The notes: generated from the letters alone by a model not told the origin. A stretch of DNA of 64,000 bases from an uncultured Alphaproteobacteria bacterium (GCA_902621305.1 CACNLM010000004.1:54488-118487), one strand, 5' to 3'; counted from the first letter of the stretch, positions 6,233 to 22,159 are shown. Numbers and translations are program-made.

Positions 6233-6236
6233 ATTT

Positions 6237-6989
6237 CTAACTTAAAATTGGGTCTTTAACAGGAATAATTGGTACTCCGCCTGGGGATTGTTCTGTACCA
6301 GAAATTTCAATAGTACTTATATTGCTTCGCCATCTAACACTCAAAGCAAACATTATTGCATCAGCAATATCTCTCGGTTCGAGAAGAGTAAAACCAGACA
6401 TAAATTTTTTTGCTTTATTTTTATTTGTAAAAGCAGCTTTACCAAAATTTGTTTTAGTTCTTCCAGGGCATATTTCAGAAACTTTTACTCTTGATCCACT
6501 TAGTTCAATTCTTAAACTTTGAGCAATTCTATGTATAGCACCTTTTTGACCACCATAAACAGTACTCATTTGTGGATATAGACCTGCAAGAGACCCCATT
6601 AAAACTACATGACCTTTTCTTCTTTTTATCATTCCTGGAACAGTAGCTTTTAAGGTATGAAGATAAGACTCGACATTTAATCTTGTAGATAACTCAATAT
6701 CTTGTCTTGACGCTTTTAATATACCTTCAGCTCCTCTTCCAATACCAGCATTACAAACTACAATATCAACTTTAAGTTTACTAAGTTTTTTATAAATTTG
6801 ATCAGTATCAAATAGATCAATTTGAATTATTTCAAATTTATGTTTTTTTTGTAATTTCTCTAATGCTGAAATATTTTTATCAAGAGCGTAAATTTTTATT
6901 TTTTCTTTAAAAAATCTTTTAAGAGTTTCCAAGCCAATACCACTTGAAGCACCTGTTATTAATACACTTTTATATATTTTATTGATCAT
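6237..6989 (-). CDS. Short-chain dehydrogenase/reductase, YdfG-like
   Basis: Classical SDR of 250 residues: cofactor motif TGASSGIGLE, NAG motif (VVCNAGIG), catalytic Ser in MGSLAG and Tyr/Lys in VYGGQKGA. The C terminus (EPRDIADAIMFALSV then NISTIEISGTEQ) resembles the YdfG 3-hydroxyacid dehydrogenase group. It is the only gene on the minus strand between the left-hand operon and uxuB and is divergent to uxuB, with a 30-base spacer. In this context it could be the 2-keto-3-deoxy-L-fuconate dehydrogenase of the fucose route, or a reductase giving KDG or mannonate. The sequence alone does not decide. Confidence 0.85.
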   Translation of the reverse strand: MINKIYKSVLITGASSGIGLETLKRFFKEKIKIYALDKNISALEKLQKKHKFEIIQIDLFDTDQIYKKLSKLKVDIVVCNAGIGRGAEGILKASRQDIELSTRLNVESYLHTLKATVPGMIKRRKGHVVLMGSLAGLYPQMSTVYGGQKGAIHRIAQSLRIELSGSRVKVSEICPGRTKTNFGKAAFTNKNKAKKFMSGFTLLEPRDIADAIMFALSVRWRSNISTIEISGTEQSPGGVPIIPVKDPILS

Positions 6990-7019
6990 CTTCCGTTAAA
7001 GTATATTTTAAATAGTAAT

Positions 7020-8447
7020 ATGCAATTAAATAAAAATATAAACAGAAATCTTTTAAAAGAACAATCATTTCCGAGTTATAATATTAACAATAATGAAGAT
7101 TGCATACTACATTTCGGTATTGGTAATTTTCATAGGGCTCACCAAGCATTGTATATTCATGAAATGTTGGAAAATAATAAAAATATTTCCATAATTGGAA
7201 TTAATTTAAGGTCTGAAGAAACAAAAAATAAAATGGAAAATCAAGATCACTTGTATTCTTTAGTAAGGATATCAAATAACTACAAGAAAATTGATATTTT
7301 AAATCCAATAAAAAAAATATTATTTGGTTTAAAAGATAAGAGTGAAATTAGAAATTTAATTGCATCTGAAAAAATTAAATTAATTACTATTACTGTTACA
7401 GAAAAAGGTTATCATTATGATAAAAACAAAAATTTAAACTTTTCTAATGAAATTAAAAATGATCTTAACGATAATGATTTATCCACAATGATAGCTCATT
7501 TAGCTTTTGGAATAATTGAAAGATATAAAAAAAATAAAAAAAAATTAATTGTTTTAAGTTGTGATAATTTATCTGAAAATGGAAAAATTTTAAAAAATTT
7601 AGTTAAGCAATTTATAGAAATTAAACACCCAGAATGTTTAGACTGGTTTGAAAAAAATATTGAATTTCCATTATCTATGGTTGATGGCATAGTTCCCAAT
7701 AATAATAAAAAATCTAATTTTTTCAGCTTACCATATACTGATAATTCAATTGTGGTTACAGAGCCTTACAGAGACTGGTATATTGAGTCAGGTAGTTTGG
7801 AATTAAAAAAAATTTTATCAAACAATAAAATAAATTTTGTAAATGATGTAAAATTTTATGAAAATATTAAACTTAAAATACTTAATGCCACACACTCAGC
7901 TTTAGCATATATTGGACATTTATGCGGCTATACATATGTTCATGAAGCTATACAAGATAAATCTATATATAAATTTATTTTAAATTTTTTAGACAACGAG
8001 GTTATTCCAACTTTAGATAAAGTAGCGGGATTTGATATAAATAATTATAAATTTACAATATTAGAAAGATTTAAAAATATTTATATTGAGGATAAGCTTT
8101 TAAGAATATCAATGGATGGATCAATAAAAATTCCAATCAGAATACTTGATACATATGTAAAAAATACTAATCAAACTAAGTATATCCAATTTATTGTAAC
8201 AAGTTGGCTTTATTTTATTATGCAATTACTGGAAAACGATAATGAATTGTTTGTGGATCCAAATAAAGAATATTTTAAAAGAGTTTACTATGAAAATAAA
8301 TCAAACTTTTCCAAAGAGATTCTTAACAATAAAAATATATTTAATTTAAGCCCCATAAAAAGTAACGAAATGATTAAAGATGTTAATTATAATTTAAAAT
8401 TAATTACAGAAAAATCTATAAAAAAAGTTATAGAAGAATTTAAATAA
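7020..8447 (+). CDS. uxuB: Fructuronate reductase / mannitol dehydrogenase family (UxuB-like)
   Basis: Long-chain polyol dehydrogenase family enzyme, probably reducing D-fructuronate (or tagaturonate) to the aldonate with NADH. The N-terminal ILHFGIGNFHRAHQALY is the family signature, and the catalytic Lys/Asn/His segment is seen as LKILNATHSALAYIGHLCGY. Length 475 residues matches UxuB or MtlD (480-490). Lysine- and asparagine-rich, as expected for this base composition. Immediately followed without gap by an Ldh-family gene. uxuA lies 1.0 kb away on the opposite strand, and the linkage favours fructuronate over mannitol. Confidence 0.82.
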   Translation: MQLNKNINRNLLKEQSFPSYNINNNEDCILHFGIGNFHRAHQALYIHEMLENNKNISIIGINLRSEETKNKMENQDHLYSLVRISNNYKKIDILNPIKKILFGLKDKSEIRNLIASEKIKLITITVTEKGYHYDKNKNLNFSNEIKNDLNDNDLSTMIAHLAFGIIERYKKNKKKLIVLSCDNLSENGKILKNLVKQFIEIKHPECLDWFEKNIEFPLSMVDGIVPNNNKKSNFFSLPYTDNSIVVTEPYRDWYIESGSLELKKILSNNKINFVNDVKFYENIKLKILNATHSALAYIGHLCGYTYVHEAIQDKSIYKFILNFLDNEVIPTLDKVAGFDINNYKFTILERFKNIYIEDKLLRISMDGSIKIPIRILDTYVKNTNQTKYIQFIVTSWLYFIMQLLENDNELFVDPNKEYFKRVYYENKSNFSKEILNNKNIFNLSPIKSNEMIKDVNYNLKLITEKSIKKVIEEFK

Positions 8448-9497
8448 ATGAAAATTTTTTCAACAAAAGTAAAAAAATTTTTTGATAAAATCTTAATTGA
8501 ACTCAAAATTCCAAAAAATCATAGAGATTTATTAATAAAATCATTGATCGATTCTTCTATAAGAGGTGTAGATAGTCACGGTATAAGATTATTTTCTCAT
8601 TATGTAAAATGTATTGAAAATGGAAGAATTAAAGCAAAACCACAAATGAAGTTAATTAAAAAAAACAAAGGCATTGCAGTCTATGATGCTGACGATGGTT
8701 TAGGTCATGTAGCTGCATTGAAAGCATCAAATATAGTTTCCAAAATGGCAAAAAAAAATGGAATTGCATCAATAGCAATAATTAACTCTTCTCACTATGG
8801 AGCAGCAGGTGTATATTCACATGAAATTGCAAAAGATCAGTGTGTAGGTTTTTCTTTTACCCATACTGATGCATTTGCTATGCCATACAATGGAAAAGGT
8901 GCTTTTCATGGAACGAATCCATATTCATTTACAACTCCTATAAATAATAAAGATTACTTGCATGTTGATTTTTCATCTACATCTATAGCTTGGAATAAAG
9001 TAATGCGAGCTAGATCAAATTCTACAAAATTAAGCTCCGAAGTTGCTATTGATAGTAAAGGAAATTATACAACAGATCCTTATGAAGCTATAGCTCTAGC
9101 ACCTATGGGTGGTAAGGAATATGGGCATAAAGGTTTCGGTTTATCGTCTTCTGTTGAAATAATGTGTGGACCACTTATTGGAATGGCTCATGGTTATCGA
9201 CTGTTATCAATGATAGGACCTGATTTTAGCACACCGAGAAAACTTGGACATTTTTTAATCGCAATCTCCCTAGATTCTTTTACTACTAAAAAGAAATATT
9301 TTAATGGCATCAAGCAATATATAAAAGACTTAAAGAAACAAAAATCAAAAAATATAAGGAATCCTATTTTATATCCTGGTGAATTGGAAAAAATTACTTC
9401 AAAGCATAGACTTAAATATGGTATTCCGATAGATAAAGAATTGAAAACTGATTTTTTATATCTTGCAAAAAAATTTAAAATTAATTTTAATTTATAG
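8448..9497 (+). CDS. Ldh family (malate/L-lactate/ureidoglycolate-type) oxidoreductase
   Basis: NAD(P)-dependent dehydrogenase of the YlbC/YiaK/MdhII fold, acting on 2-hydroxy- or 2-keto-acids. Family blocks are SSIRGVDSHGIRLFSHY (catalytic His in DSHG), NSSHYGAAGVYS, and GKEYGHKGFGLSSSVEIMCGPL. 349 residues, full length. The start abuts the uxuB stop (TAAATG), indicating one transcript. Relatives include 2,3-diketo-L-gulonate reductase (YiaK) and L-lactate or malate dehydrogenases. In this cluster it might act on a keto-acid from uronate or fucose breakdown, including lactate from the fucose route; inference only. Converges with uxuA, overlapping it by 11 bases. Confidence 0.82.
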   Translation: MKIFSTKVKKFFDKILIELKIPKNHRDLLIKSLIDSSIRGVDSHGIRLFSHYVKCIENGRIKAKPQMKLIKKNKGIAVYDADDGLGHVAALKASNIVSKMAKKNGIASIAIINSSHYGAAGVYSHEIAKDQCVGFSFTHTDAFAMPYNGKGAFHGTNPYSFTTPINNKDYLHVDFSSTSIAWNKVMRARSNSTKLSSEVAIDSKGNYTTDPYEAIALAPMGGKEYGHKGFGLSSSVEIMCGPLIGMAHGYRLLSMIGPDFSTPRKLGHFLIAISLDSFTTKKKYFNGIKQYIKDLKKQKSKNIRNPILYPGELEKITSKHRLKYGIPIDKELKTDFLYLAKKFKINFNL

Positions 9498-10674
9498 CTT
9501 TAATAATTCCTTTTAATTGATCTAAACCTTTCATCCTTCCGAGTAGTGAATATCCTGGTATTACTTTTTGATTTTGATCATACAGTATAGTATGTCCGTG
9601 ATCAGGTCTCATTGGTATCTGTTGTATTGAATGTTTATTTTTTTTTCTTTTTTTTTCTTCTTTCAAAATTTCTTTAATTATCCCAACCATATTCAGGCTA
9701 CCCTCTAGGTGATCATCTTCATAAAAGTCTAAAGATTTTGAAATTCGTTTTATATTTCTTAAATGTATAAAATTTATATATGGACCATGTTTTTTTACTA
9801 TTCTTAATAAATTATTTTTTCTACTCACTCCAAGTGAACCAGTACAAAATGTTAGACCAATATTTGTATCTTTTTTTAAACCTAAAATATATTCTATATC
9901 ATCTTCATTTGAAACTATTCTAGGAAGCCCATAAATATTGTAAGGAGGATCATCTGGATGTATATTGTAGTTTAATTTATATTTTTTTATAATGGGATAA
10001 ATTTCATTAATAAATTCTTTTAAATTATTTCGAAGATCTTTAGGTTTAATTTCTTCAAATTGATCAATTTCATAATTTAAGTCTTTAATACTATATTTTC
10101 TATCTGTTGCAACTAAACCTCCTAGTAATGATTTTTTTAATACATTTAAATCAGCAGCGTTCATATTTTTAAAAATTTTCTTTGATTTAAAAATTTCTTC
10201 AGGAGAATATCTTAATTTTGCTGTCTTCGATTTTAAAATAAAGTTTTCAAATGCACAAACATGAAGGTGGTTATATTTCAATGCAATAGCTCCATTTGAT
10301 AATTGATGATTTAAATCTGTTCTAACCCAATCTATTAATGGCATAAAGTTATAACAAATATTTTTAATACTATTCTTACCCAAATTAACTAAAGAATCTT
10401 TATATTGATCAATATAATATTTATACTTTCCAGATCTTTTTTTTATGTCATTATGAACTGGAAGGCTCTCAACCACATTCCAGGTTAAATTTTTGCTTTC
10501 AGTAATCTTAAAACTTTCTATGTATTTTTTTCTTTTTTTAATATCATTTGATTTCCATTTTTCACCATATTTAATCTGATTAAGTGAAGAGACGATTCCT
10601 TCAACGCCAATCTGTCGAATTTGATCTAATTTTGAAGGATCATTATGACCAAACCATCTAAATGAATACAGCAT
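9487..10674 (-). CDS. uxuA: Mannonate dehydratase
   Basis: Dehydrates D-mannonate to 2-keto-3-deoxy-D-gluconate (KDG). UxuA-family TIM barrel: N-terminal SFRWFGHNDP and IRQIGVEGIVSSL, metal-site Cys in FCTGSLGV, His in FIHLRNIKR, and the diagnostic IPMRPDHGHTILYD near the C terminus. Full length at 395 residues. It is on the minus strand, divergent from the sugar-binding protein gene across a 104-base regulatory spacer, so both may share a control region. Its product is consumed by KdgK and Eda encoded 10 kb downstream. Confidence 0.93.
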   Translation of the reverse strand: MLYSFRWFGHNDPSKLDQIRQIGVEGIVSSLNQIKYGEKWKSNDIKKRKKYIESFKITESKNLTWNVVESLPVHNDIKKRSGKYKYYIDQYKDSLVNLGKNSIKNICYNFMPLIDWVRTDLNHQLSNGAIALKYNHLHVCAFENFILKSKTAKLRYSPEEIFKSKKIFKNMNAADLNVLKKSLLGGLVATDRKYSIKDLNYEIDQFEEIKPKDLRNNLKEFINEIYPIIKKYKLNYNIHPDDPPYNIYGLPRIVSNEDDIEYILGLKKDTNIGLTFCTGSLGVSRKNNLLRIVKKHGPYINFIHLRNIKRISKSLDFYEDDHLEGSLNMVGIIKEILKEEKKRKKNKHSIQQIPMRPDHGHTILYDQNQKVIPGYSLLGRMKGLDQLKGIIKAIN

Positions 10675-10756: not shown

Positions 10757-10778
10757 AAAATAAATTTAAGGAGGAATG

Positions 10779-11807
10779 ATGAAAAAATTTATAATATTTT
10801 TAACTTCTTTTTTTGCTTTGCTAGCATCACCTGTTTTTGCAGGTGGTCATGGTGTTACTAAAGTAGCTCTAGTCCCTGGTGGCCCGCACCCTTATTTTGC
10901 TGCGTGGGAACAAGCAGGTTTAGACGCTGTAGAGGACTTTGGTTTAGGAAAAGCAGATTACAGAGTTCCTGCAGAGTGGGATCTAAGTCAACAAAACGAG
11001 TTAATTGAAAGTTTAGTTGGTCAAGGTTACAATGCAGTACTTGTATTCCCTGGTGATGCAGTTGGTACAAATAAAATTTTAGGTGAACTAGATGATGCTG
11101 GTATACCAACAGCTGCCTTAGCAGGTTGTGTTGAGCAACCAACTCAAGCAAAATTTTGTTTTGGAACTGACACTGGTCACTCAGCTTATCTTGGTACAAA
11201 AGAATTGATTAAAGCTTTAGGTGGCAAAGGAAAAATTGCTCACTTTACTGGTTTCTTAGTTGATCCAAATACAACTCTAAGAATCAATGCTGTTGAACAA
11301 GCTGTTTCAGAAGCAGGCGGTGGAGTAGAAATTATTCAAGTTATTGCTGATATTGATGCTTATGAACCGGCTGATGAAAAAATTAATGCTTTCATGGCAG
11401 CTCAAGGAAGTGAAGTAGATGGTATTGTTACTACTGCTTGGGTTCCTGCTGTTGTAGCAGCACAAGCTTTAACTAATATGGGCGATAAAAGAATTAAAAT
11501 GGTTGGTATTGATCATGACGAAGTAGTTTTAAAAGCTATTAAAGATGGTTATGTTCACGGAACTATGCTTCAAAACCCATATGGACAAGGTTACATTGGT
11601 TCATATGTAATGGACAAAGTTAGACAAGGTTGTGAGTTCAAAGCTGATGCACCTTGGAAATCAACTGCACAAACTGATCAATTTATTGATTCAGGCACTG
11701 TATTTGTTGATATTAGTGATGTTGATACATACGTTATGGCTATGAGAGGAATTTCTCTAGAAATTTTAGAAACTTTTGATAGCACATATCTTAACTGTCC
11801 AAGTTAA
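10779..11807 (+). CDS. Periplasmic sugar-binding protein of CUT2 (Rbs-type) ABC importer
   Basis: Binds a monosaccharide in the periplasm and delivers it to the two downstream permeases. Sec signal peptide MKKFIIFLTSFFALLASPVFA, then a Peripla_BP_4/LacI-like fold with GGPHPYFAAWEQAGLDAV. A perfect AAGGAGG lies at 10768-10774: only one base before the ATG at 10776 but four before the second ATG, so I start at 10779. Codon use is noticeably richer in G/C than its neighbours, typical of a highly expressed gene. L-fucose is the likeliest ligand, because fucose dehydrogenase, lactonase and dehydratase follow in the same operon; inferred from context. Confidence 0.92.
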   Translation: MKKFIIFLTSFFALLASPVFAGGHGVTKVALVPGGPHPYFAAWEQAGLDAVEDFGLGKADYRVPAEWDLSQQNELIESLVGQGYNAVLVFPGDAVGTNKILGELDDAGIPTAALAGCVEQPTQAKFCFGTDTGHSAYLGTKELIKALGGKGKIAHFTGFLVDPNTTLRINAVEQAVSEAGGGVEIIQVIADIDAYEPADEKINAFMAAQGSEVDGIVTTAWVPAVVAAQALTNMGDKRIKMVGIDHDEVVLKAIKDGYVHGTMLQNPYGQGYIGSYVMDKVRQGCEFKADAPWKSTAQTDQFIDSGTVFVDISDVDTYVMAMRGISLEILETFDSTYLNCPS

Positions 11808-11815
11808 AATAATAT

Positions 11816-11839
11816 GGGGGCATTAAGCCCCCTTTTTTT
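11816..11839 (+). terminator. Rho-independent-type hairpin between binding protein and permease
   Basis: GGGGGC-ATTAA-GCCCCC (six GC pairs, five-base loop) is followed immediately by seven T residues, and the permease ATG is the next base. It would act as a partial terminator or mRNA 3'-end stabiliser, giving high binding-protein and lower permease expression. It leaves the permease gene no room for a Shine-Dalgarno. Confidence 0.85.
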
Positions 11840-12826
11840 ATGAATAATAAAATTCCTAATTTTGTAAAAACTAATCAGTTTGGTTTACTTATATTGGTAA
11901 TTGTATTTATTTGTATTTTTTCCTTTTCAACTGATGGATTTACTTCAAGATTTAATATTTATGCTCTCTCAAGAGTAGTCGCTCTGGATATAATGATTGG
12001 TTTAGCAATGATGGTAGTTATACTTACTGGAGGTTTAAATCTATCTCTAGGTGCTTTAGGTGTTTCTGCAGCAATGTTTGGTGGTTGGTGTATGGAAAGT
12101 ATGGGGATTCCTATTTCTATAACTATTATTTTAGTTTTAGCCTTTGGTTCATTCCTAGGTTGGATTAATGGATTTGTAACTGTCAGAACGGGGGTTCACA
12201 GTTTCATTGTTACACTGGCAACGATGAGTATTTATTTTGGCTTCATGACCTTGCTCACTGAAGCAGAAGCATTTAGAAAATTACCAGAGGCTTTTACCAA
12301 TTTTGGAAGTTTAAAACTTTTTAATAAATATATTTCACCACTACTGATTATTAGTGTGCTAACTTGTTTTGTTCTTTATTACATATTTAAATACACTGAT
12401 ATTGGACGAAAGCTTATTGCAGCTGGAGCTAATCCTGATGCTGCAGAATTATCAGGTATTTCCGTAGATAGAATGTTTATTTATTGTCATATGCTTTCGG
12501 GTTTCTTAGCAGCACTTGCAGGTATTATGTTAACAGCAAGAATTGGAGCTGCAATTCCGTCTATGGCTGGTCATTTAGGATTTGACTGGTTATTACCAGC
12601 TTTCTTAGCTCCAGTATTAGGAGGAACACTTCTTTCTGGAGGCAAGGTTACAGTTTTTGGAACAATGCTAGGAGCAATTCTTGTTACATTAATAAATAAT
12701 GGATTATACCTAATTGATGTTGGTGAATTCTGGGTAAGATTTTTTCTTGGGATCATATTATTGGGAGCTGTTCTTCTAGATAGAGCTAGAGAATATTTTA
12801 CTGTTAAAAATTCAATTGTCTCATGA
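11840..12826 (+). CDS. CUT2 sugar ABC transporter permease (RbsC-like), first subunit
   Basis: Inner-membrane permease of 328 residues with multiple hydrophobic helices and the BPD_transp_2 signature: GGLNLSLGALGVSAAMFGG, NGFVTVRTGVHSFIVTLATM, and DIGRKLIAAGANPDAAELSGI (cytoplasmic coupling segment). The start codon directly follows the terminator T-tract, so translation must be leaderless-like or depend on readthrough. It overlaps the second permease by four bases (ATGA); the pair probably forms a heterodimer. Confidence 0.9.
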   Translation: MNNKIPNFVKTNQFGLLILVIVFICIFSFSTDGFTSRFNIYALSRVVALDIMIGLAMMVVILTGGLNLSLGALGVSAAMFGGWCMESMGIPISITIILVLAFGSFLGWINGFVTVRTGVHSFIVTLATMSIYFGFMTLLTEAEAFRKLPEAFTNFGSLKLFNKYISPLLIISVLTCFVLYYIFKYTDIGRKLIAAGANPDAAELSGISVDRMFIYCHMLSGFLAALAGIMLTARIGAAIPSMAGHLGFDWLLPAFLAPVLGGTLLSGGKVTVFGTMLGAILVTLINNGLYLIDVGEFWVRFFLGIILLGAVLLDRAREYFTVKNSIVS

Positions 12827-13791
12827 GCGCACTTTTAAAAAAAGATTGGTTTGGACTTGGTTTAGTTTTAATTTTTGGCTCAATTTTAATTTCATTGTTT
12901 AAGCCTGCATTTATTTCTCCATTTAACTTATATGTTTTAATGCTGAGTGTTAGTTTGATGCTCGTTGTGGCAATGTCACAAATGATTATAATTGCAATTG
13001 GTCAAATGAACTTATCTGTTGGAGCAATTGGAGGCTTAGTTGCAATTTCATTTACCGGATTAATGGAAGTTTATAGCATGTCTATTTTGCCTGCTGTTCT
13101 TATTGGATTATTAATTGGTCTTGCTTGTGGTTTTATAAATGGATACATCACCGTTAAAACTGGCATATCAGCTTTTATTATTACTCTAGCTACACTTTAC
13201 ATTTTTAAAGGAATGAATTTAGGGATAACAGAGGCTCAACCTTTTTATGAAATTCCCGAAGCTGTAAAATTTTTTGGAAACGCAAAAATCTTTGGCCCTA
13301 TACCTTACTTAGTAATCATACCAATTATTATAACTGTTCTGATGTGGATTTTAATGAATAGAACATCTCTTGGAAGATATATGCTAGCATATGGTAATAA
13401 TGTTCAATCATCAGAATTAATAGGTATATCTTCAACAAAAATAGTTATCTATGCTCATGTTATATCCGGTCTTTTGGCAGCCATAGGTGGAATGTTAGTT
13501 GTTTGTAGATTACAACTTGGGACACCTAACATAGGAGATTCGTGGTTGTTACCTTCATTTGCTGCACCAGTAATTGGAGGTGCTATACTGGCTGGAGGAA
13601 AAGTAGATGTTATTGCTACTGCTTTTGGAGTAATATTAGTTTCTATAATTTCTCAAGCTTTAGTTATTTTTAAGATTGATCCTTTTTTTGTTCAAATATT
13701 TTTAGGCTTTATGATTTTATTAGCAGTATTTATAAATAGATACAGAGAATATAGAGAAGAGAGAAGAACAAAGGTTTTTTCAGATGAGTGA
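12823..13791 (+). CDS. CUT2 sugar ABC transporter permease (RbsC-like), second subunit
   Basis: Second BPD_transp_2 permease, 322 residues, with GQMNLSVGAIGGLVA, NGYITVKTGISAFIITLATL and SLGRYMLAYGNNVQSSELIGI in the same order as its neighbour. The paralogous pair instead of a homodimeric RbsC is common in CUT2 importers for deoxy-sugars and oligosaccharides. Coupled by ATGA to the upstream permease and overlapping the ATPase gene by eight bases. Confidence 0.9.
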   Translation: MSALLKKDWFGLGLVLIFGSILISLFKPAFISPFNLYVLMLSVSLMLVVAMSQMIIIAIGQMNLSVGAIGGLVAISFTGLMEVYSMSILPAVLIGLLIGLACGFINGYITVKTGISAFIITLATLYIFKGMNLGITEAQPFYEIPEAVKFFGNAKIFGPIPYLVIIPIIITVLMWILMNRTSLGRYMLAYGNNVQSSELIGISSTKIVIYAHVISGLLAAIGGMLVVCRLQLGTPNIGDSWLLPSFAAPVIGGAILAGGKVDVIATAFGVILVSIISQALVIFKIDPFFVQIFLGFMILLAVFINRYREYREERRTKVFSDE

Positions 13792-15292
13792 TTATATTTT
13801 AGAACTTAATAATATTACAAAAAATTTTCCTGGTGTTAAAGCGCTTGATAATGCAAATTTTAAACTCAAAAAAAAATCAATCCATGCACTTCTCGGTGAA
13901 AATGGAGCAGGTAAATCTACATTAATTAAAATCATAACAGGAGTTTATAACCAAAATGAAGGAAAACTATTTTTAAATAATCAAGAGAAGTCTTTTTCTT
14001 CACCCAATGAAGCAATGAATGCTGGAATTTCAGTTGTGCACCAAGAAAGAAATTTAATTAGGAGGTTTTCGGTTGGTGAAAATTTAATGTTAACTAACCT
14101 TCCTAAAAATAATTTAGGTTTAATAGATTATAATACTGTTGCAAAAGAATCAAAAAAATGGCTCGATATTATGGAGTTGGACATAGACCCAAATACTATA
14201 GTCTCAGATTTAACAGTTGCAAAAATGCAACTGTGTGAAATAGCTAAAGCTTTATCCTTAGAGTCAAAAATACTATTATTAGATGAGCCAACTTCATCAT
14301 TATCTCCACAAGATACAAAAAATTTATTTGCATTACTTAAACGATTAGTTGCAGAGCAAAATGTAAGTATAGTTTTTGTTAGTCACAAATTAGAGGAAGT
14401 ATTTGAAATTTGTGATGAAGTCACTGTTTTGAGAGATGGTAAAAATGCTTGTGAATCTGAACAAATCACTAATCTTAATAGACAGAAACTTGTTAAATTA
14501 ATGATTGGTAGGGATGAGCAAATAATTAAATCTAAGAAGGATATTGATTTTACGGATGAAAATTTACTAGATCTACAATCAATAAACACTGATCTTGGTC
14601 ATAAAAATATTAATTTAAATTTAAAAAAAGGTGAAATACTTGGATTGTACGGTTTAGTTGGGGCAGGAAGAACCGAATTAATAAAATGTGTCCTTGGGCT
14701 TGATAAAATTAATTCTGGACAAATTTTACTCAACAATAAAGAAATTAAAATTAAATCTCCAAAAGATGCGTTAGAAAAATATAAAATTGGATACATAAGT
14801 GAAGACAGAAAAAAAGAAGGACTAATTCTAATGCATGATGTTTTATCCAATGCTGGAATAACAGTCTGGTCAAATTTGAAAAAAATATTATCCTTTTTAA
14901 ATGATAATATAGTTTATAATAAAGTAGATCCATATGTGAAACAACTTGAAGTAAAAACACCTTCATACCAACAAATCGTTTCTAATTTATCTGGAGGTAA
15001 TCAGCAAAAAATTAGTGTAGCTAAATGGCTTGCTTCTGGAACTGATATATTATTTATTGATGAACCTACAGTTGGTATTGATATAAAAACAAAATCTTAC
15101 CTTCATGAATTAATTATTGAACTATCTTTAAAAGGTACATCGATTATTTTAATAACTAGTGATATGCCTGAAATGATTAGTTTAGCTGATAGAATTATAA
15201 CGATGAAAGATTTTAAAGTAGTTGGAGAAACAATAAATAATCATAGCTATGAAGAAATGAGTTCATCAATTATGAGTAATATTCATGAATAA
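13784..15292 (+). CDS. CUT2 sugar ABC transporter ATP-binding protein (RbsA-like, two ABC domains)
   Basis: Powers the CUT2 importer. The N-terminal ABC domain has Walker A GENGAGKST and Walker B ILLLDEPTSSLS. The C-terminal domain has the degenerate Walker A-like GLVGAGRTEL, signature LSGGNQQKISVAKWL and Walker B ILFIDEPTVGID, the usual RbsA/MglA arrangement. Length 502 residues is normal. Overlaps the permease upstream and the aldo/keto reductase downstream by eight bases each, tying transport to catabolism in one polycistronic unit. Confidence 0.93.
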   Translation: MSDYILELNNITKNFPGVKALDNANFKLKKKSIHALLGENGAGKSTLIKIITGVYNQNEGKLFLNNQEKSFSSPNEAMNAGISVVHQERNLIRRFSVGENLMLTNLPKNNLGLIDYNTVAKESKKWLDIMELDIDPNTIVSDLTVAKMQLCEIAKALSLESKILLLDEPTSSLSPQDTKNLFALLKRLVAEQNVSIVFVSHKLEEVFEICDEVTVLRDGKNACESEQITNLNRQKLVKLMIGRDEQIIKSKKDIDFTDENLLDLQSINTDLGHKNINLNLKKGEILGLYGLVGAGRTELIKCVLGLDKINSGQILLNNKEIKIKSPKDALEKYKIGYISEDRKKEGLILMHDVLSNAGITVWSNLKKILSFLNDNIVYNKVDPYVKQLEVKTPSYQQIVSNLSGGNQQKISVAKWLASGTDILFIDEPTVGIDIKTKSYLHELIIELSLKGTSIILITSDMPEMISLADRIITMKDFKVVGETINNHSYEEMSSSIMSNIHE

Positions 15293-16286
15293 AAGACAAC
15301 TTGGAAACACAAATATAAACTTAACCGCTATAGGATTTGGCGGAGCACCTTTGGGTAATTTGTTTGAAAATCTCGATGAACGAAATTGTTATGATATTCT
15401 AGAAAAAACCTATAACGAGGGTATTAATATTTACGATACATCTCCGCTTTATGGTTATGGTTTAAGTGAACACAGATTAGGTAACTTTTTAAAAACTGTA
15501 GATGAAGAAAGTTATTTTTTATCAACTAAAGTTGGCAGGTATCTTACTCCAGCAAAAAAAGAAAGTATAGATAGGGGAAGATTTGCAGGAAGTTTAAATT
15601 TTTCTCCTAATTTAGATTATTCTTATGATGGTGTGATGAGAGCATTTGAACAATCATTGCTAAGATTAGCTGTTTCAAAAGTAGATATTTGCTTAATTCA
15701 TGATGTAGATCGATTTAATTTTGGTGAAGAGGTTGATCATTATTTTAAATTAGCAATGGATGGAGCATATAAAGCCGTTCAAAAACTAAAAGAAGAAAAA
15801 ATAATTAAGGCTATTGGCGTAGGTGTAAATGATTCTGATATATGTGCAAGATTTGCTAATGCTGGCGATTTTGATTGCATGGTTCTAGCAGGTAGATATT
15901 CATTATTAGATCAAAATGCTTTAAATGATTTTTTCCCAATTGCTGAAAAAAACAACATAGGCATTATTCTTGCTGGAATTTTTAATTCTGGAATTTTAGC
16001 TAAAGGTTTGGGTGAAAATATTACCTACTTTTATGATAAAATTCCTGAAGAAGTTAAACAAAGATACTTAAAAATTGCTAATATATGTAAAAAATATGAG
16101 GTACCTGTTCCAGCAGCAGCAATTCAATTTTGTTACACAAATAAACTTGTCACTTCCATGATTTTGGGGATGGATAGAGTGGAGCAAGTAAAGCAAAATT
16201 TAGATTATTTAAATTTTCCTATTCCTGAAGATTTATGGAAAGATTTACTTAATGAAAAATTAATTGATGAAAGATGCCCAATATGA
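15285..16286 (+). CDS. Aldo/keto reductase, probable L-fucose (D-threo-aldose) 1-dehydrogenase
   Basis: Presumed to oxidise L-fucose to L-fuconolactone. The AKR tetrad is visible: Asp in IYDTSPLYGYG, Tyr in the same segment, Lys in LSTKVGRYL and His in CLIHDVDRF. N-terminal IGFGGAPLGNLFE is typical of the D-threo-aldose/L-galactose dehydrogenase branch of AKRs. 333 residues, full length. The assignment to fucose rests on neighbours: L-fuconate dehydratase starts inside its 3' end, and the lactonase and mutarotase follow. D-arabinose and L-galactose are plausible alternative substrates. Confidence 0.82.
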   Translation: MNKRQLGNTNINLTAIGFGGAPLGNLFENLDERNCYDILEKTYNEGINIYDTSPLYGYGLSEHRLGNFLKTVDEESYFLSTKVGRYLTPAKKESIDRGRFAGSLNFSPNLDYSYDGVMRAFEQSLLRLAVSKVDICLIHDVDRFNFGEEVDHYFKLAMDGAYKAVQKLKEEKIIKAIGVGVNDSDICARFANAGDFDCMVLAGRYSLLDQNALNDFFPIAEKNNIGIILAGIFNSGILAKGLGENITYFYDKIPEEVKQRYLKIANICKKYEVPVPAAAIQFCYTNKLVTSMILGMDRVEQVKQNLDYLNFPIPEDLWKDLLNEKLIDERCPI

Positions 16287-17569
16287 AAATAATTGATATT
16301 AAAACTCAGGATATTCGTTTTCCAACCTCAAAAGATAATTTGGGGACTGATGCAGTTCATGTAGATTGTGATTACTCTGCAACATACGTGACAATATTTA
16401 CAGATCAAGAAGATTTAAATGGTATTGGCCTAACTTTTACAATTGGAAAGGGTAATGATCTTTGTTGTACAGTCATAGAATATTTCAAAGAATTTATAAT
16501 TGGAAAAGATATTCAGGAAATAGAAAAGAATATTGCATCGATATGGGAAAAAATTACAAACCACAGTCAATTGCGTTGGGTAGGACCACAAAAAGGTGTT
16601 ACACATCTTGCAGCAGCAGCTTTTTTTAATGCAATATGGGATTTAATTTCTAAATTCCATAAAAAGCCACTATGGAGATACATAATAGAATTAGAAACAA
16701 GAGATTTATTAGATAAACTTTCTTTTTCTTATATTGATGATGTCATCACTAAAGATGAAGCGGCTGAAATAATTAATCAGAAAAAAACAAATCTACCTTC
16801 AAATTTAGACGATTTAAATTCTACTATTTTTCCAGCATATACAACAGCTGCAGGATGGTTAGGATATTCAGATGAAAAAATGAAAAGGCTAGTTCAAGAA
16901 AATTTATCTAAGGGCTGGACTCATTTTAAAATGAAAGTTGGTCAGGATATAGAAAGGGATATTCATCGCTGTAAGTTAGTAAGAGAATTAATAGGTAATG
17001 ACAATAAATTAATGGTAGACTCAAATCAAATATGGAGTGTTAATGAGACCATTGAAAATATTAGAAAATTAAAACAATTTGATATTTTATTTTATGAAGA
17101 ACCAACTAATCCTGATGATGTATTAGGTTTTAAAAAAATTAAAGATGCACATCCAGATGTTAACCTAGCAACTGGAGAAATGATACAAAATAAAGTTATG
17201 TTTAAACAATTTATAGAAAATAAATCTTTAGATTATTGTCAAATTGATAGCTGTAGAATTGCAAGTATTAATGAAATTTTACCAGTTCTTTTAATAGCAA
17301 GTAAGTATAATACCCCAGTTATTCCTCACGCTGGCGGCGTTGGTTTATGTGAATATGTTCAACATCTTAATCTAATTAATAAGTTTATAATATCTAATCA
17401 CGATTTATTATTAAGTGAATATGCTGAAAGCTGCTCTGAACATTTTGTAAATCCAGCAATAATAAAAGATGGTGGATATGTAACTCCAACAAATCCAGGA
17501 TACTCAGTGAAAATAAAGGATAGTTCTCTTAATGAATTTGATTATAATAATGGAACATATTGGAAATAA
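16283..17569 (+). CDS. fucD: L-fuconate dehydratase (enolase superfamily)
   Basis: Converts L-fuconate to 2-keto-3-deoxy-L-fuconate in the non-phosphorylating fucose pathway. The N-terminal DIRFPTSKDNLGTDAVH and DCDYSATYV are characteristic of L-fuconate dehydratase within the mandelate racemase/enolase group. Catalytic and metal residues: KMK in THFKMKVGQD, Asp in LMVDSNQIW, Glu in FYEEPTNPDD, Glu in TGEMIQN and His in VIPHAGGVGLCEY. ATG 16283 overlaps the upstream TGA by four bases, the spacing used elsewhere in this operon; ATG 16274 would add three residues. About 428 residues, full length. Ends one base before the lactonase start. Confidence 0.93.
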   Translation: MKIIDIKTQDIRFPTSKDNLGTDAVHVDCDYSATYVTIFTDQEDLNGIGLTFTIGKGNDLCCTVIEYFKEFIIGKDIQEIEKNIASIWEKITNHSQLRWVGPQKGVTHLAAAAFFNAIWDLISKFHKKPLWRYIIELETRDLLDKLSFSYIDDVITKDEAAEIINQKKTNLPSNLDDLNSTIFPAYTTAAGWLGYSDEKMKRLVQENLSKGWTHFKMKVGQDIERDIHRCKLVRELIGNDNKLMVDSNQIWSVNETIENIRKLKQFDILFYEEPTNPDDVLGFKKIKDAHPDVNLATGEMIQNKVMFKQFIENKSLDYCQIDSCRIASINEILPVLLIASKYNTPVIPHAGGVGLCEYVQHLNLINKFIISNHDLLLSEYAESCSEHFVNPAIIKDGGYVTPTNPGYSVKIKDSSLNEFDYNNGTYWK

Positions 17570-18394
17570 ATGTACGTAGATAGTCATCAACATTTTTGGA
17601 AACTTGCAAGAGGAGATTATTTATGGATGACTCCAGATATGAAAGTTTTATATAAAGATTTTTTTCCGGAAGATCTTGAACCGTTAATTAAAGATAAAAA
17701 TATAACCCAAACAGTTATTGTTCAAGCAGCGGATACAGTAGCAGAAACAGAATTCACCTTAAGTTTAGCATCCAAGCATGATTTTATTGCAGGTGTTGTT
17801 GGTTGGGTTGATTTAGATAACGATAAAGCTAAGGATGATATTGATAAACTTTGTGAAAGTAATTTTTTAAAAGGTTTCAGACCAATGATACATGATATTC
17901 AAGATGACGAATGGATGTTAAAAGAAAATCTCAGTGAAAATTTAAAATATATGAATAAAAAAAATTTAACATTTGACGCCTTAGTTAGGCCAAATCATCT
18001 TAAGCACCTAATAAAATTTGTAAATAAATATGATTTTCTACCAGTCGTAATAGATCATATTGCTAAACCCTTAATTATAAATTCAGAAATTGATGAATGG
18101 AAAAAAGATATGACTGAATTATCAAAGGCTAATAACGTTCATTGTAAATTTTCAGGAATTGTTACTGAAGTGGGTAAAGATTATAAAAAAAATCAATTAG
18201 ATCCTTATATAGATTTTATTCTCAATTTATTTGGTCCAGATAAATTAATGTGGGGAAGTGATTGGCCCGTATTAACTATGGCAGATTCATATGGAAATTG
18301 GTTTGATTTAGCTATGGATTATTGCTCCTCTTTCTCGGAAGATGAAAAAAACAAAATTTTTTCATTAAATGCAAAAAATTTTTACAATCTTTAA
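17570..18394 (+). CDS. L-fuconolactone hydrolase (amidohydrolase family)
   Basis: Hydrolyses L-fucono-lactone to L-fuconate. Amidohydrolase-2 fold: metal motif DSHQHFWKLARGDYLWM at the N terminus, VIDHIAKPL (His) in the middle, and LMWGSDWPVL with the catalytic Asp near the C terminus; ends normally with NAKNFYNL. 274 residues, full length. Follows fucD without spacer (TAAATG). The product order dehydrogenase-dehydratase-lactonase differs from reaction order, as is common in these operons. Immediately downstream the DNA switches to a truncated permease. Confidence 0.9.
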   Translation: MYVDSHQHFWKLARGDYLWMTPDMKVLYKDFFPEDLEPLIKDKNITQTVIVQAADTVAETEFTLSLASKHDFIAGVVGWVDLDNDKAKDDIDKLCESNFLKGFRPMIHDIQDDEWMLKENLSENLKYMNKKNLTFDALVRPNHLKHLIKFVNKYDFLPVVIDHIAKPLIINSEIDEWKKDMTELSKANNVHCKFSGIVTEVGKDYKKNQLDPYIDFILNLFGPDKLMWGSDWPVLTMADSYGNWFDLAMDYCSSFSEDEKNKIFSLNAKNFYNL

Positions 18395-18906
18395 TTTTCT
18401 TTTATTTCCTTCTAGGAATGATGATACCGCCACAAGTAATATTAATTCCTGCATTTAAAATAATGAATACAATTGGTTTGGTTAATACATATTTTGCGGT
18501 AATATTTACTTACTTAGCCTGGGTTCCTTTTGCTATATTTTTTTTCAGAGCTTATTTTCTTGGAATACCTAAAGATTTAATTGAAGCTGCAAAAATTGAT
18601 GCGGCATCTGACTTAGTAATATTTTTTCAAATCATGATGCCTTTAGCTAAACCTGCTGTTGTTACAGTTGCAATAATTTACTTTGTTTGGATATTTAATG
18701 ATTTTATGTGGCCTTTAATTTATTTAAATGATCACGATCTCAGAACAGTAACTCTTGGAATGATGTCCTTCCAAGGAAAATATAGTGGAGCTACAACTTT
18801 AAAAACTGTAGCTTTAATGTTAGCCACAATGCCACCAATGATAGTATTCCTAATATTTAGAAATCAAATTCAAAGTGGGCTTGTTGATGGTGCCTTAAAA
18901 AGATAG
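18395..18906 (+). pseudogene. 5'-truncated MalG-type (CUT1) sugar permease remnant
   Basis: Encodes only the C-terminal part of a carbohydrate permease normally around 275-280 residues. The homologous sequence begins just after the lactonase stop, reading IFFYFLLGMMIPPQVILIP in frame with the ORF-track protein (first ATG 18418). It keeps the coupling EAA loop (EAAKIDAASDLVIFFQIMMPLAKPA) and the C-terminal NQIQSGLVDGALKR. About 110 N-terminal residues, including the first membrane helices, are absent, and the frame upstream meets a stop at 18343. This looks like a deletion junction that fused the tail of a malG-like gene to the fucose operon. The fragment has no other lesion, so it may be recent or still translated. 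No malF or binding protein accompanies it. Confidence 0.85.
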
Positions 18907-18915
18907 GAGAATAAT

Positions 18916-20379
18916 ATGAGTATAGGAATGCAATATCAATCTACATGGGAGTCTATAAAACAACATACAACTCCTAGTTGGTTTAAAAAAGCTAAATATG
19001 GAATTTATGCCCATTGGGGACCTTACTCAGTTCCTGCGGCTGGACCAAATGTTACATGGTATCCTTATTGGATGTATAGAGAACCGAGTCCACAATTTGA
19101 TCATCATGTTAAACATTTTGGTCATCCTTCAAAATTTGGATACAAAGATTTCATTCCAATGTTTACTGCAGAAAAGTTTGATGCAGAAGAATGGGCAGAT
19201 TTATATTCCCGCTCAGGTGCAAAATTTGCCGGTCCTGTAGCAGAACATCATGATGGATTTCCAATGTGGGACTGTTCCGACACTGAATGGTGCGCTTCTA
19301 AAATGGGCCCAAAAAGAGATGTTGTTGGAGAATTAGAAAAAGCAATTAGAGATAAAGGTATGAAATATATGGTTGCAATGCACCATGCTGAAAATTGGTA
19401 TTTTTTTCCTCATTGGAATAAAGACTTTGATACTTCAAAAAAAGAATTTGAAGGCTTATATGGAGAACTTCACAATTTAGATAATAGTGATAACCAGGCA
19501 ATATATCCAGATCATTGGGGTAGAAAGACAGAATATCAAGATAAACCTAGTAAAGCTTTTCATGATCGTTGGTTAAATAGATTAAAAGAAGTAGTAGATA
19601 ATTACCGACCAGATTATGTTTGGTTTGATTTTGGTATTAGATATATTCATGAAAAATATAAAAAAGATTTTCTTTCATATTACTATAATAAAGAGAAAGA
19701 ATGGGATAGTGAAGTTGTAGTATCATATAAATGGCATGACTTACCTCCTGGTTCTGGCTTATTGGATCTTGAATTGGGAAGAGAGTCTGAATTAACACAT
19801 TATGACTGGATAACAGATACTACAGTCCACGATGGAAGTGCATGGGCATATATGAAAGATTCAGAATACAAATCAACAACTGATTTAGTTCATTACTTGA
19901 TAGATAATGTAAGTAAAAATGGATACATGCTCTTAAATATAGGACCAAAACCTGATGGAACAATTCCAGATGAAGATAAAAGTCTTTTAGAAGGTATTGG
20001 AAAGTGGCTCGAGGTAAGTGGAGAAGCGATTTTTGATACTGAGACTTGGGATAAATATGGAGAAGGAACAACAGAAATGACAGAAGCTGGTCCATTTTCT
20101 GATAATCGTGCAAAGCTTAAATATACAGCTCAAGATTTTCGTTTTACTACTAAAGGAAATTCACTTTATGCGACTGCATTAGGTTGGCCAAGTAAAGATT
20201 TTACATTAGAAAGTATGGATAAACTCTTTGATAATGAGGTTGAGTCAGTTGAGCTTCTTGGTAGCAATGAAAAAGTTGAATGGAAACAAACAAAAGACGG
20301 TCTTCATATTTCTAGACCTGATAATAAGCCATGTGACCATGCAGTTAGTTTCAAAATCAATAGAAAGGAAAATCTTTAA
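18916..20379 (+). CDS. Alpha-L-fucosidase, GH29, predicted cytoplasmic
   Basis: Retaining exo-fucosidase releasing L-fucose from fucosylated glycans or glycosides. GH29 blocks: WFKKAKYGIYAHWGPYSVPA near the N terminus, KFAGPVAEHHDGFPMWDC, and YVWFDFG with candidate nucleophile Asp238; GYMLLNIGPKPDG follows, and a small C-terminal beta domain. 487 residues. The N terminus (MSIGMQYQSTW) has no signal peptide or lipobox, so it should act in the cytoplasm on imported substrate, unlike most secreted or periplasmic GH29 enzymes. AGGAG six bases upstream supports the start. The MalG remnant directly precedes it. Confidence 0.93.
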   Translation: MSIGMQYQSTWESIKQHTTPSWFKKAKYGIYAHWGPYSVPAAGPNVTWYPYWMYREPSPQFDHHVKHFGHPSKFGYKDFIPMFTAEKFDAEEWADLYSRSGAKFAGPVAEHHDGFPMWDCSDTEWCASKMGPKRDVVGELEKAIRDKGMKYMVAMHHAENWYFFPHWNKDFDTSKKEFEGLYGELHNLDNSDNQAIYPDHWGRKTEYQDKPSKAFHDRWLNRLKEVVDNYRPDYVWFDFGIRYIHEKYKKDFLSYYYNKEKEWDSEVVVSYKWHDLPPGSGLLDLELGRESELTHYDWITDTTVHDGSAWAYMKDSEYKSTTDLVHYLIDNVSKNGYMLLNIGPKPDGTIPDEDKSLLEGIGKWLEVSGEAIFDTETWDKYGEGTTEMTEAGPFSDNRAKLKYTAQDFRFTTKGNSLYATALGWPSKDFTLESMDKLFDNEVESVELLGSNEKVEWKQTKDGLHISRPDNKPCDHAVSFKINRKENL

Positions 20380-20703
20380 ATGATACGATTAGGTATGACT
20401 CTTGGTGTTAGAGAAGATAAAATTGATGAATACAAAAGATTGCATGCAAATGTATGGCCAGAAATTTTAGATAATTTGACAGAGCTTAATTTTAAAAACT
20501 TTTCTATCTATTTACATAAAAACACACTATTTGGTTACATGGAATATCACGGTGACGATCTTGAAAGAGACAACAAATTAATGGCAGCAAATCCTAAGGT
20601 ACAAGAATGGTGGAGTTTATGTGGACCATGTCAAGTTCCAGATCCAAATAGGAAAAAAGGTGAATGGTGGTCAATAATGGAAGAGGTTTTTCACCACGAT
20701 TAA
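20380..20703 (+). CDS. L-rhamnose/L-fucose mutarotase (RhaM family)
   Basis: Interconverts sugar anomers so the dehydrogenase receives the right one. RhaM/YiiL family: MIRLGMTLGVREDKIDEYKRLH at the N terminus (active-site His in KRLHANVWPEI), NFSIYLHKNTLFGYMEY, and the Trp pair in VQEWWSL; 107 residues, full length. Starts directly at the fucosidase stop. RhaM homologues in fucose operons serve as L-fucose mutarotases; here fucose is the likelier ligand because no rhamnose genes are present. Confidence 0.88.
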   Translation: MIRLGMTLGVREDKIDEYKRLHANVWPEILDNLTELNFKNFSIYLHKNTLFGYMEYHGDDLERDNKLMAANPKVQEWWSLCGPCQVPDPNRKKGEWWSIMEEVFHHD

Positions 20704-20712
20704 TATAAAAAT

Positions 20713-21609
20713 ATGAAAATAAACGTATGCTCAATCGGTGAAGCTATGATAGAGATTTCAAATATAAAAAATAGTTTGTACAATCAATCTTTTGCTGGTG
20801 ATACACTTAATTTTTGTAATTATCTTGATAAGAAAAAATTAAAAGCTTTTTTTTTAAGTGCCATAGGAAAATCTGAAATTAATCAATCGTTTTTAGATTT
20901 TGTAAAATCTAAAAAAATATCAACAAAATATATAAAACAAATTAATAAATTTGAAGCGGGATTATATTTAATTAAAAATAAAGATAATGGAGAAAAGCAA
21001 TTTTTTTATTGGAGAGATGAAAGTGCAGCAAAACAATACTTCAATAATATTGATTTCTTAAATTTATTTAAAGAGCTTAAAAATTTTGATTATATTTATT
21101 TTTCTGGCATAACTCTATCAATAATACATATATCAAAACTAAATAATTTTATTAAATTATTAAAGCTATTAAATAATAAAAAAATAAAAATTGTTTTTGA
21201 TTTGAATATTCGCCCAAGTCGATGGAATAAAAAAAATTTAAATATTTTTTTAGACTCAGTCCTAAAATTGGTAGATATATGTTTTTTATCCGGTGAAGAT
21301 ATGAATTATTGGAAAAACAAAAGCAATATCAAGTCTTATGAGCAAATAGTAAGGAAATATAAGATAAAACACAGTATATTCAGAAAAAATGCTGAATATA
21401 CATACGTATTTCTTAATAAAACTAGATATGTTTTTAAGAATAAATTACTTAAAAAGGTGGTTGATACTTCAGGTGCTGGCGATGGATTTAATGCTGCTTA
21501 TTTATCTAATTTTATTGTAAATAATGATCCAGTTTTAGCATTAAAAGCTGGCAGCAGTTTAGGTTCTAAAATAGTAATGAAAAAAGGCGCTATTGTAGAT
21601 GTTAAATAA
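20713..21609 (+). CDS. kdgK: 2-keto-3-deoxygluconate kinase (PfkB family)
   Basis: Phosphorylates KDG to KDPG. PfkB/ribokinase fold: N-terminal SIGEAMIEIS, QSFAGDTLNFCNYL, KQFFYWRDESAAKQYF, FDLNIRPSRW, and the catalytic-base motif DTSGAGDGFNAAYL. 298 residues, typical of KdgK. Overlaps eda by 11 bases, confirming the Entner-Doudoroff exit of the uronate route. The fucose branch could also use it only if 2-keto-3-deoxyfuconate lacked the 6-hydroxyl requirement; a 6-deoxy sugar cannot be phosphorylated at C6, so this gene serves the uronate branch. Confidence 0.88.
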   Translation: MKINVCSIGEAMIEISNIKNSLYNQSFAGDTLNFCNYLDKKKLKAFFLSAIGKSEINQSFLDFVKSKKISTKYIKQINKFEAGLYLIKNKDNGEKQFFYWRDESAAKQYFNNIDFLNLFKELKNFDYIYFSGITLSIIHISKLNNFIKLLKLLNNKKIKIVFDLNIRPSRWNKKNLNIFLDSVLKLVDICFLSGEDMNYWKNKSNIKSYEQIVRKYKIKHSIFRKNAEYTYVFLNKTRYVFKNKLLKKVVDTSGAGDGFNAAYLSNFIVNNDPVLALKAGSSLGSKIVMKKGAIVDVK

Positions 21610-22159
21610 TCAATTAAAATCTGAGCTCCACAAACAACAATTATTACCAATTTTAAATACAACAAATCTGGAGAGTGATATTGAAAGATTAAAAAAATAT
21701 TTAAATCAAAATAAATCAATTGAATATATAGAGATAACATTAAGAGAAAAAGAATCGTTTTCTATTGCTGTAGAATTAAAAAAATACTTTTCAGATTGTA
21801 AATTTGGACTAGGCTCTGTTTTAACGAAAGAAGATTTAGTCAGAGGTCAAGATCATAATTTTAATTTTTATGTTTCCCCTGGTATTATTGAAGAAATATT
21901 AGAAATGAAAAATCCATTCTATATTCCAGGAGCCGAGACGGTTAGTGAATTCATATATCTTAGTAAAAAAGGTTATGAAATAATTAAATTTTTCCCAGCT
22001 AATTTAAATGGAGAAAATAAAAAATTACAATCTATTAAAAATATTTTAAGGAATATAAAATTCATACCAACAGGTGGTGTCAATAAAGATAATATTGATA
22101 AATATCTAAATTTGAAAAATGTATTATGTGTTGGAACTTCTAATTTTGAAGAATTTTAA
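21599..22159 (+). CDS. eda: KDPG aldolase
   Basis: Cleaves 2-keto-3-deoxy-6-phosphogluconate to pyruvate and glyceraldehyde-3-phosphate. Class I aldolase with general-base Glu in YIEITLREKE, Schiff-base Lys in IKFFPANLNG, the FIPTGGVN phosphate-binding block and FGLGSVLTKEDL. 186 residues, slightly short of E. coli Eda (213) because the C-terminal helix is trimmed. Last gene of the plus-strand island; its stop overlaps the convergent ureohydrolase gene by four bases. Confidence 0.9.
   Translation: MLNNQLKSELHKQQLLPILNTTNLESDIERLKKYLNQNKSIEYIEITLREKESFSIAVELKKYFSDCKFGLGSVLTKEDLVRGQDHNFNFYVSPGIIEEILEMKNPFYIPGAETVSEFIYLSKKGYEIIKFFPANLNGENKKLQSIKNILRNIKFIPTGGVNKDNIDKYLNLKNVLCVGTSNFEEF

Follow-up and report, generated by a model that had tools for sequence, protein, structure and literature searches.

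How does a glycoside hydrolase confined to the cytoplasm obtain its substrate, and is the fucose operon that encodes it a complete system? These questions are raised by a 64,000-nucleotide stretch of DNA from an uncultured alphaproteobacterium (GCA_902621305.1 CACNLM010000004.1:54488-118487; here, the window), in which a preliminary description had recognized a self-contained importer and non-phosphorylating L-fucose pathway with a GH29 fucosidase. We concluded, with a probability of roughly 0.7, that the locus is a non-phosphorylating L-fucose catabolic operon, that its GH29 gene belongs to an accessory cassette, and that the CUT1 importer associated with this gene was lost by deletion.

Profile matches and coordinates bore out the gene run at 10776-20703: all of the families first named lie on the + strand in the order described (Table 1). 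Neighboring genes are mostly linked, with overlaps of 4, 8, 8, and 13 bp, and with 0 bp separating the genes for L-fuconate dehydratase (FucD1) and lactonase, as well as those for GH29 and RhaM. The original gene list was incomplete, having missed a truncated CUT1 permease gene and the genes for KdgK and KdgA, which extend the same run to 22159. The importer consists of a periplasmic binding protein with a signal peptide (MMKKFIIFLTSFFALLASPVFA), BPD_transp_2 permeases, and a fused double ATPase, as expected of a CUT2 ABC importer. Between its binding-protein and permease genes lies a perfect GGGGGC-ATTAA-GCCCCC hairpin with a T7 tail, which is probably an attenuator that keeps expression of the permeases below that of the binding protein. 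Shuffled sequence gave more consensus promoter matches than the actual sequence, and no promoter was assigned; a search of the window for tRNAs and Rfam families found none.

Table 1. Features of the fucose gene run (positions are those of the window).
Feature	Position	Strand	Evidence
CUT2 substrate-binding protein, signal peptide	10776..11807	+	PF13407 1.7e-41; N-terminal hydrophobic stretch
Terminator-like hairpin, T7 tail, 3' of binding-protein gene	11816..11832	+	Pattern in 22 related loci
CUT2 permease A	11840..12826	+	PF02653 9.7e-36
CUT2 permease B	12823..13791	+	PF02653 1e-32
CUT2 double-domain ATPase (AraG/RbsA type)	13784..15292	+	PF00005 x2 stretches; AraG model 492 bits
Aldo-keto reductase (AKR), probable L-fucose/L-galactose 1-dehydrogenase	15285..16286	+	PF00248; solved relatives
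L-fuconate dehydratase (FucD1), enolase superfamily	16274..17569	+	Xanthomonas 1yey, 405 bits, full length
L-fuconolactonase	17570..18394	+	NF052480 221 bits (cut-off 400); PDB 4dlf 128 bits
Deletion junction, TTAATTTTC exact 9-bp repeat	18391..18405	.	14/15 bp common to both parental sites
CUT1 MalG permease remnant, C-terminal 162 codons	18418..18906	+	PF00528 2.2e-18, domain start missing
Cytoplasmic GH29, exo-alpha-L-fucosidase or alpha-L-galactosidase	18916..20379	+	PF01120 316 bits; D238, E286
RhaM-family mutarotase	20380..20703	+	PF05336 3.5e-32
2-keto-3-deoxygluconate kinase (KdgK)	20713..21609	+	NF052444 196 bits
KDPG aldolase (KdgA)	21599..22159	+	PF01081 2.8e-30

Among the catabolic enzymes, FucD1 conserves the KxK, Asp, Glu, Glu, and His positions in alignments with Xanthomonas campestris FucD. 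The lactonase finds its best full-length model in NF052480, yet scores below the NCBIfam curated cut-off, and the best solved relatives of the AKR are L-galactose dehydrogenases, its sequence alone not resolving the substrate. The assignment to a non-phosphorylating L-fucose pathway was supported, but the operon encodes the steps only as far as 2-keto-3-deoxy-L-fuconate (L-KDF). Candidates for the remaining steps lie on a separate contig of the window's genome, G000 (G000:C1, ~31.4-34.2 kb; L134 9443-12182), which encodes a short-chain dehydrogenase (SDR), an FAH-family hydrolase, and an FMN L-lactate dehydrogenase-like protein. Together with the probable importer deletion described below, this corrects the reading of the operon as a complete, self-contained system.

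The distal SDR matches BDH2/DHRS6 and the Herbaspirillum L-KDF dehydrogenase (L-KDFDH). Relative to 8y4j it keeps all five equivalents, Arg148, Thr183, Arg192, Arg214, and Trp252, of the R-T-R-R plus Trp set that forms the L-KDFDH ligands (PMC11199699). The FAH-family hydrolase adjoins this dehydrogenase and has its best matches in the L-rhamnonate counterpart, namely 8gsr, an L-2,4-diketo-3-deoxyrhamnonate hydrolase, and NF053535 (389 of 500 bits, below the curated cut-off); the fucose and rhamnose routes have the diketo intermediate in common (PMC11199699). As in route 3 of Xanthomonas and Herbaspirillum huttiense (PMC11199699), then, there are candidates for the dehydrogenase, lactonase, dehydratase, L-KDF dehydrogenase, and diketo hydrolase. 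The present pathway departs from route 3 in starting with an AKR, in having its lower steps encoded on a different contig beside an L-lactate dehydrogenase gene, and in combining its upper steps with GH29 and a CUT2 importer. KdgK and KdgA were set aside as fucose enzymes, given that L-KDF has no 6-OH to phosphorylate and that UxuA/UxuB-like genes adjoin; KdgK probably serves these neighboring hexuronate genes. We also rejected an HpcH-type aldolase that would cleave L-KDF: G000 has one good match, which reads as a citrate-lyase/malyl-CoA-lyase-like protein, and a second, weak match within a long frame.

The distribution of the lower module extends beyond this operon. Its hydrolase occurs in 81 of the 102 genomes of our genus set (the window's own included), and it therefore also serves other sugars or the route through a second, ~52% identical dehydratase, FucD2, which lies beside this hydrolase in 42 of 42 placed cases. 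FucD1 was found in 36 genomes and FucD2 in 43; both co-occur in a single genome versus 15 expected (Fisher p 2e-10, a value that ignores phylogeny and genome incompleteness). These numbers fit a replacement of FucD2 by FucD1 as supplier of the same lower module, and the near-exclusive pattern favors a 6-deoxy sugar whose breakdown ends in L-lactate.

We then considered the GH29 enzyme itself. Its ATG is preceded by a GGAG Shine-Dalgarno site and sits 9 bp past the preceding stop, and the frame is open for only 3 codons upstream. The N terminus has no hydrophobic stretch nearby and no room upstream for a signal peptide, which upholds the earlier statement that the enzyme lacks one. That such a location is unusual for GH29 could not be sustained, as members without a signal peptide, from T. 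maritima and R. gnavus ATCC_03833, are among those characterized (PMC10154630). The catalytic domain contains an Asp nucleophile and a Glu acid/base, neither of which varies among 80 homologues, BpGH29, and FgFCO1.

The fucosidase label is less secure, as the nearest solved structure is that of an exo-alpha-L-galactosidase. A structure model built from 40 sequences (mean pLDDT 92.9; a 6-sequence model reached only 44.5) came closest to BpGH29 of Bacteroides plebeius (7lk7; TM 0.90), followed by Fusarium fucosidases (TM 0.87) and the T. maritima fucosidase (TM 0.75). The likeness to BpGH29 (7lk7, 7ljj, and 7snk) covers the fold and the catalytic Asp and Glu. The two nevertheless differ in clade: in our tree, the GH29s of the genus form a single clade (100/100) among Chloroflexota sequences, apart from the BpGH29 clade, the BpGH29 and FgFCO1 branches both being long. 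They differ also in that the window GH29 has a 2-residue insertion and, next to W48, carries T47 where BpGH29 and FgFCO1 carry Glu; T or S occupies this position in the window clade and its relatives. In the T. maritima fucosidase, the equivalent Glu presumably contributes to the sugar-binding site. A best bit score to BpGH29 had suggested a clear alpha-L-galactosidase, an assignment we dropped because the pairwise identities are about equal (41.4% to BpGH29 versus 39.7% to the fucosidase FgFCO1). With identities of ~40% to both and the changed Glu, the enzyme may act on alpha-L-fucosides or on alpha-L-galactosides.

The same likeness bears on the identity of the pathway sugar, which might be L-galactose instead of or besides L-fucose, with GH29 acting as an exo-alpha-L-galactosidase, the AKR as an L-galactose dehydrogenase, and KdgK and KdgA involved. 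The nearest solved relatives of both GH29 (by score and by fold) and the AKR point in this direction, and L-KDGal is accepted by L-KDFDH, at lower efficiency (PMC11199699). We consider this quite improbable, given that GH29 is about as close to FgFCO1 as to BpGH29 and falls in a different clade from the latter, that the lower module yields L-lactate and includes an L-lactate dehydrogenase, which is what the breakdown of a 6-deoxy sugar would call for, and that the UxuA/UxuB-like genes account for KdgK and KdgA.

The case for L-fucose as the sugar leaves the question of how GH29 is supplied, on which the permease remnant directly 5' of it is informative. The remnant is in frame and of the MalG/UgpE type, and it matches only the later part of family models: its alignment starts at position 28 of PF00528 (184 positions) and at approximately position 110-121 of models for full-length permeases, GlcU and UgpE among them. 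It is 99% identical to the C terminus of the full malG product in a sister locus (L033). Five sister genomes (G030, G087, G086, G007, and G075) carry a full CUT1 locus at the same site, with GH29s 96 to 99% identical to that of the window, except for one at 76%. In these genomes the CUT2-AKR-FucD1-lactonase genes are followed by those for a 3-hydroxybutyrate-dehydrogenase-type SDR, fatty-acid-hydroxylase-like proteins, a GntR/FCD regulator, a PhyH-type protein (opposite strand), a CUT1 binding protein (432 aa), MalF (294 aa), and MalG (277 aa), and then by GH29, RhaM, KdgK, KdgA, and an agmatinase-like gene. The sisters' extra ~7484 bp includes the complete CUT1 binding protein, MalF, and MalG directly 5' of GH29, and the window corresponds to G086 or G087 minus exactly 7484 bp. 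One side of the junction falls just past the lactonase stop and the other inside malG, both flanks being 98 to 100% identical to the sisters, so that of CUT1 only the last 162 MalG codons remain at the window locus. An orthologue of the CUT1 binding protein is present in 6 of the 102 genomes and absent from G000, where the best match is 26% identical.

We infer that the window represents a full CUT1 locus from which a segment was deleted across a 9-bp repeat, and a natural deletion is the probable cause. Whole-genome amplification or assembly could also have produced the truncated malG and the missing 7.5 kb, with the real cell keeping the full CUT1 locus. An amplification chimera is possible because no second genome was found to have the same junction and because SCGC single-cell assemblies contain, on average, ~1.5 misassemblies in every 100 kb (PMC11247762). 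The close relatives are single-cell (GORG-type) or metagenome assemblies, the sequence on both sides of the break is nearly that of the sisters, and short homology of the kind seen at the junction is also used by amplification chimeras. The break, however, spares both the stop codon of the lactonase gene and the complete GH29 gene, G000 has no close copies elsewhere of the SDR and CUT1 binding protein that were deleted, and the same segment is also absent from G151 and from the group represented by G069, G003, and G076. On balance, an artifact seems somewhat unlikely. The deleted SDR was ruled out as the missing L-KDF dehydrogenase, being of the 3-hydroxybutyrate-dehydrogenase type. Within the deleted segment, L033 (14439-16438) encodes two fatty-acid-hydroxylase-family membrane proteins in opposite orientation, and G075 has an extra BKACE and SDR pair in the same variable segment (L037 14536-16217).

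Other states of the locus were found across the genus, in which 34 of the 102 genomes have a GH29 of the window type. In G151, a 95% identical GH29 is joined directly 3' of the lactonase and preceded by sequence matching the leader and start region of the SDR gene in the full loci, as if this genome had lost the same segment independently. The G069, G003, and G076 group has lactonase-GH29-RhaM with no malG remnant; the CUT2 operon of G006, G057, and G088 lacks GH29; and G021 and G078 keep AKR and GH29, while CUT2, FucD1, and lactonase are not at the site. Given these differing states, GH29 acts as a cassette inside a core fucose operon, whether CUT1 accompanies it or not. A further locus, that of G002 (L040 2617-5367), has decayed: the ATPase and RhaM genes are 3' stubs, FucD1 and lactonase are gone, and GH29 is kept; this genome carries FucD2 elsewhere.

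The preliminary description had treated GH29 and CUT2 as one self-contained system in which fucosylated oligosaccharides or glycosides must enter whole through CUT2. Some CUT2 systems do take small glycosides, and 28 of the 34 GH29-bearing genomes lack a CUT1 binding-protein orthologue and have kept GH29 without CUT1. Yet in three genomes the CUT2 operon has no GH29 gene, for which reason CUT2 most likely imports free fucose. GH29 occurs without this CUT2 set at the site in G021, G078, and G002, and in the sisters it is CUT1 that accompanies GH29 as an oligosaccharide importer. Obligatory entry through CUT2 is not supported by these loci, and we regard the pairing of GH29 with CUT2 as having little likelihood. 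The CUT1-GH29 link is supported by the closest GH29s outside the genus, which are from Chloroflexota, because at the nearest outside homologue locus (L065, Anaerolineae) homologues of the CUT1 binding protein, MalF, MalG, and lactonase lie <10 kb from GH29. Three Chloroflexota loci hold the nearest GH29 homologues (L065, L067, and L069), and a lactonase homologue lies 3' of GH29 in L065 and L067.

In the accessory-cassette reading that we prefer, CUT2 would import free L-fucose, a substrate suggested by its family and context. The RhaM-type mutarotase would equilibrate the anomers, the AKR would oxidize L-fucose to the lactone, the lactonase would yield L-fuconate, and FucD1 would dehydrate this to L-KDF. 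Flux would then pass to the separate module, with L-KDF dehydrogenase, 2,4-diketo-3-deoxyfuconate hydrolase, and L-lactate dehydrogenase finishing the route. GH29, a cassette of probable Chloroflexota-type origin between lactonase and RhaM, would act in the cytoplasm on small glycosides brought in from outside, freeing L-fucose and perhaps L-galactose as well, and in the sister cells the CUT1 oligosaccharide importer directly 5' would supply these glycosides. The 7484-bp deletion between short repeats would have taken the CUT1 binding protein, MalF, and the first 115 MalG codons, fusing GH29-RhaM-KdgK-KdgA to the fucose operon. The window GH29 may now depend on substrate arriving via CUT2 or another importer, or may be decaying.

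The pathway is of a known kind and has very likely been reported before in this group. In 20% of AEGEAN-169 Ca. Indicimonas genomes, Oggerin et al. 2024 (PMC11366302) describe a GH29 within a non-phosphorylating fucose pathway whose genes keep a conserved arrangement. These bacteria are apparently the same group as the window's, and the operon is probably the one described there, sharing the pathway, one GH29 per genome, the conserved gene order, and a streamlined alphaproteobacterial host. The relatives of the window's genome, GORG-type single cells, agree with the streamlined marine alphaproteobacterium first proposed; a GH29 fucose operon, ecologically notable in that description, had already been reported in AEGEAN-169. 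SAR202, which uses fucose and rhamnose by non-phosphorylating routes, likewise combines oxidative fucose catabolism with an oligotrophic oceanic life, but its JH545 genome has expanded paralog sets and no GH29, unlike the compact operon of the window (PMC10444878). Our analysis adds the deletion scar, the CUT1 importer that is linked to GH29 in the sisters, the place in the genome where the lower pathway is encoded, and the question of specificity in this GH29 subclade; the importer, scar, and specificity go beyond the AEGEAN-169 account in the portion consulted. That account leaves how cells access fucose to be explored (PMC11366302). The CUT1 importer beside GH29, in 6 of the 34 GH29-bearing genomes, is a candidate, and "selfish" uptake of fucosylated glycans versus scavenging of free fucose becomes testable within one genus.

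An Nx[T/S]WY motif (mostly PNxTWY), in place of the usual xEWY, marks a subclade spanning Chloroflexota, Spirochaetota, Bacteroidota, Lentisphaerota, and the window's marine genus. As a speculative reading that we hold to be rather unlikely as a whole, this uncharacterized subclade may have a distinct specificity, it may act on a modified L-fucoside or L-galactoside that a CUT1 importer brings in intact, and that importer may have been repeatedly gained and lost in these oceanic cells.

Upstream of the gene run, positions 35-10674 of the window form a sugar-acid locus encoding a MalK/UgpC-like ATPase, three Gfo/Idh/MocA proteins, a D-2-hydroxyacid dehydrogenase, a weak glucuronate-isomerase match, a fructuronate-reductase/arabinitol-dehydrogenase-like protein, an Ldh_2 protein, and the mannonate dehydratase UxuA.
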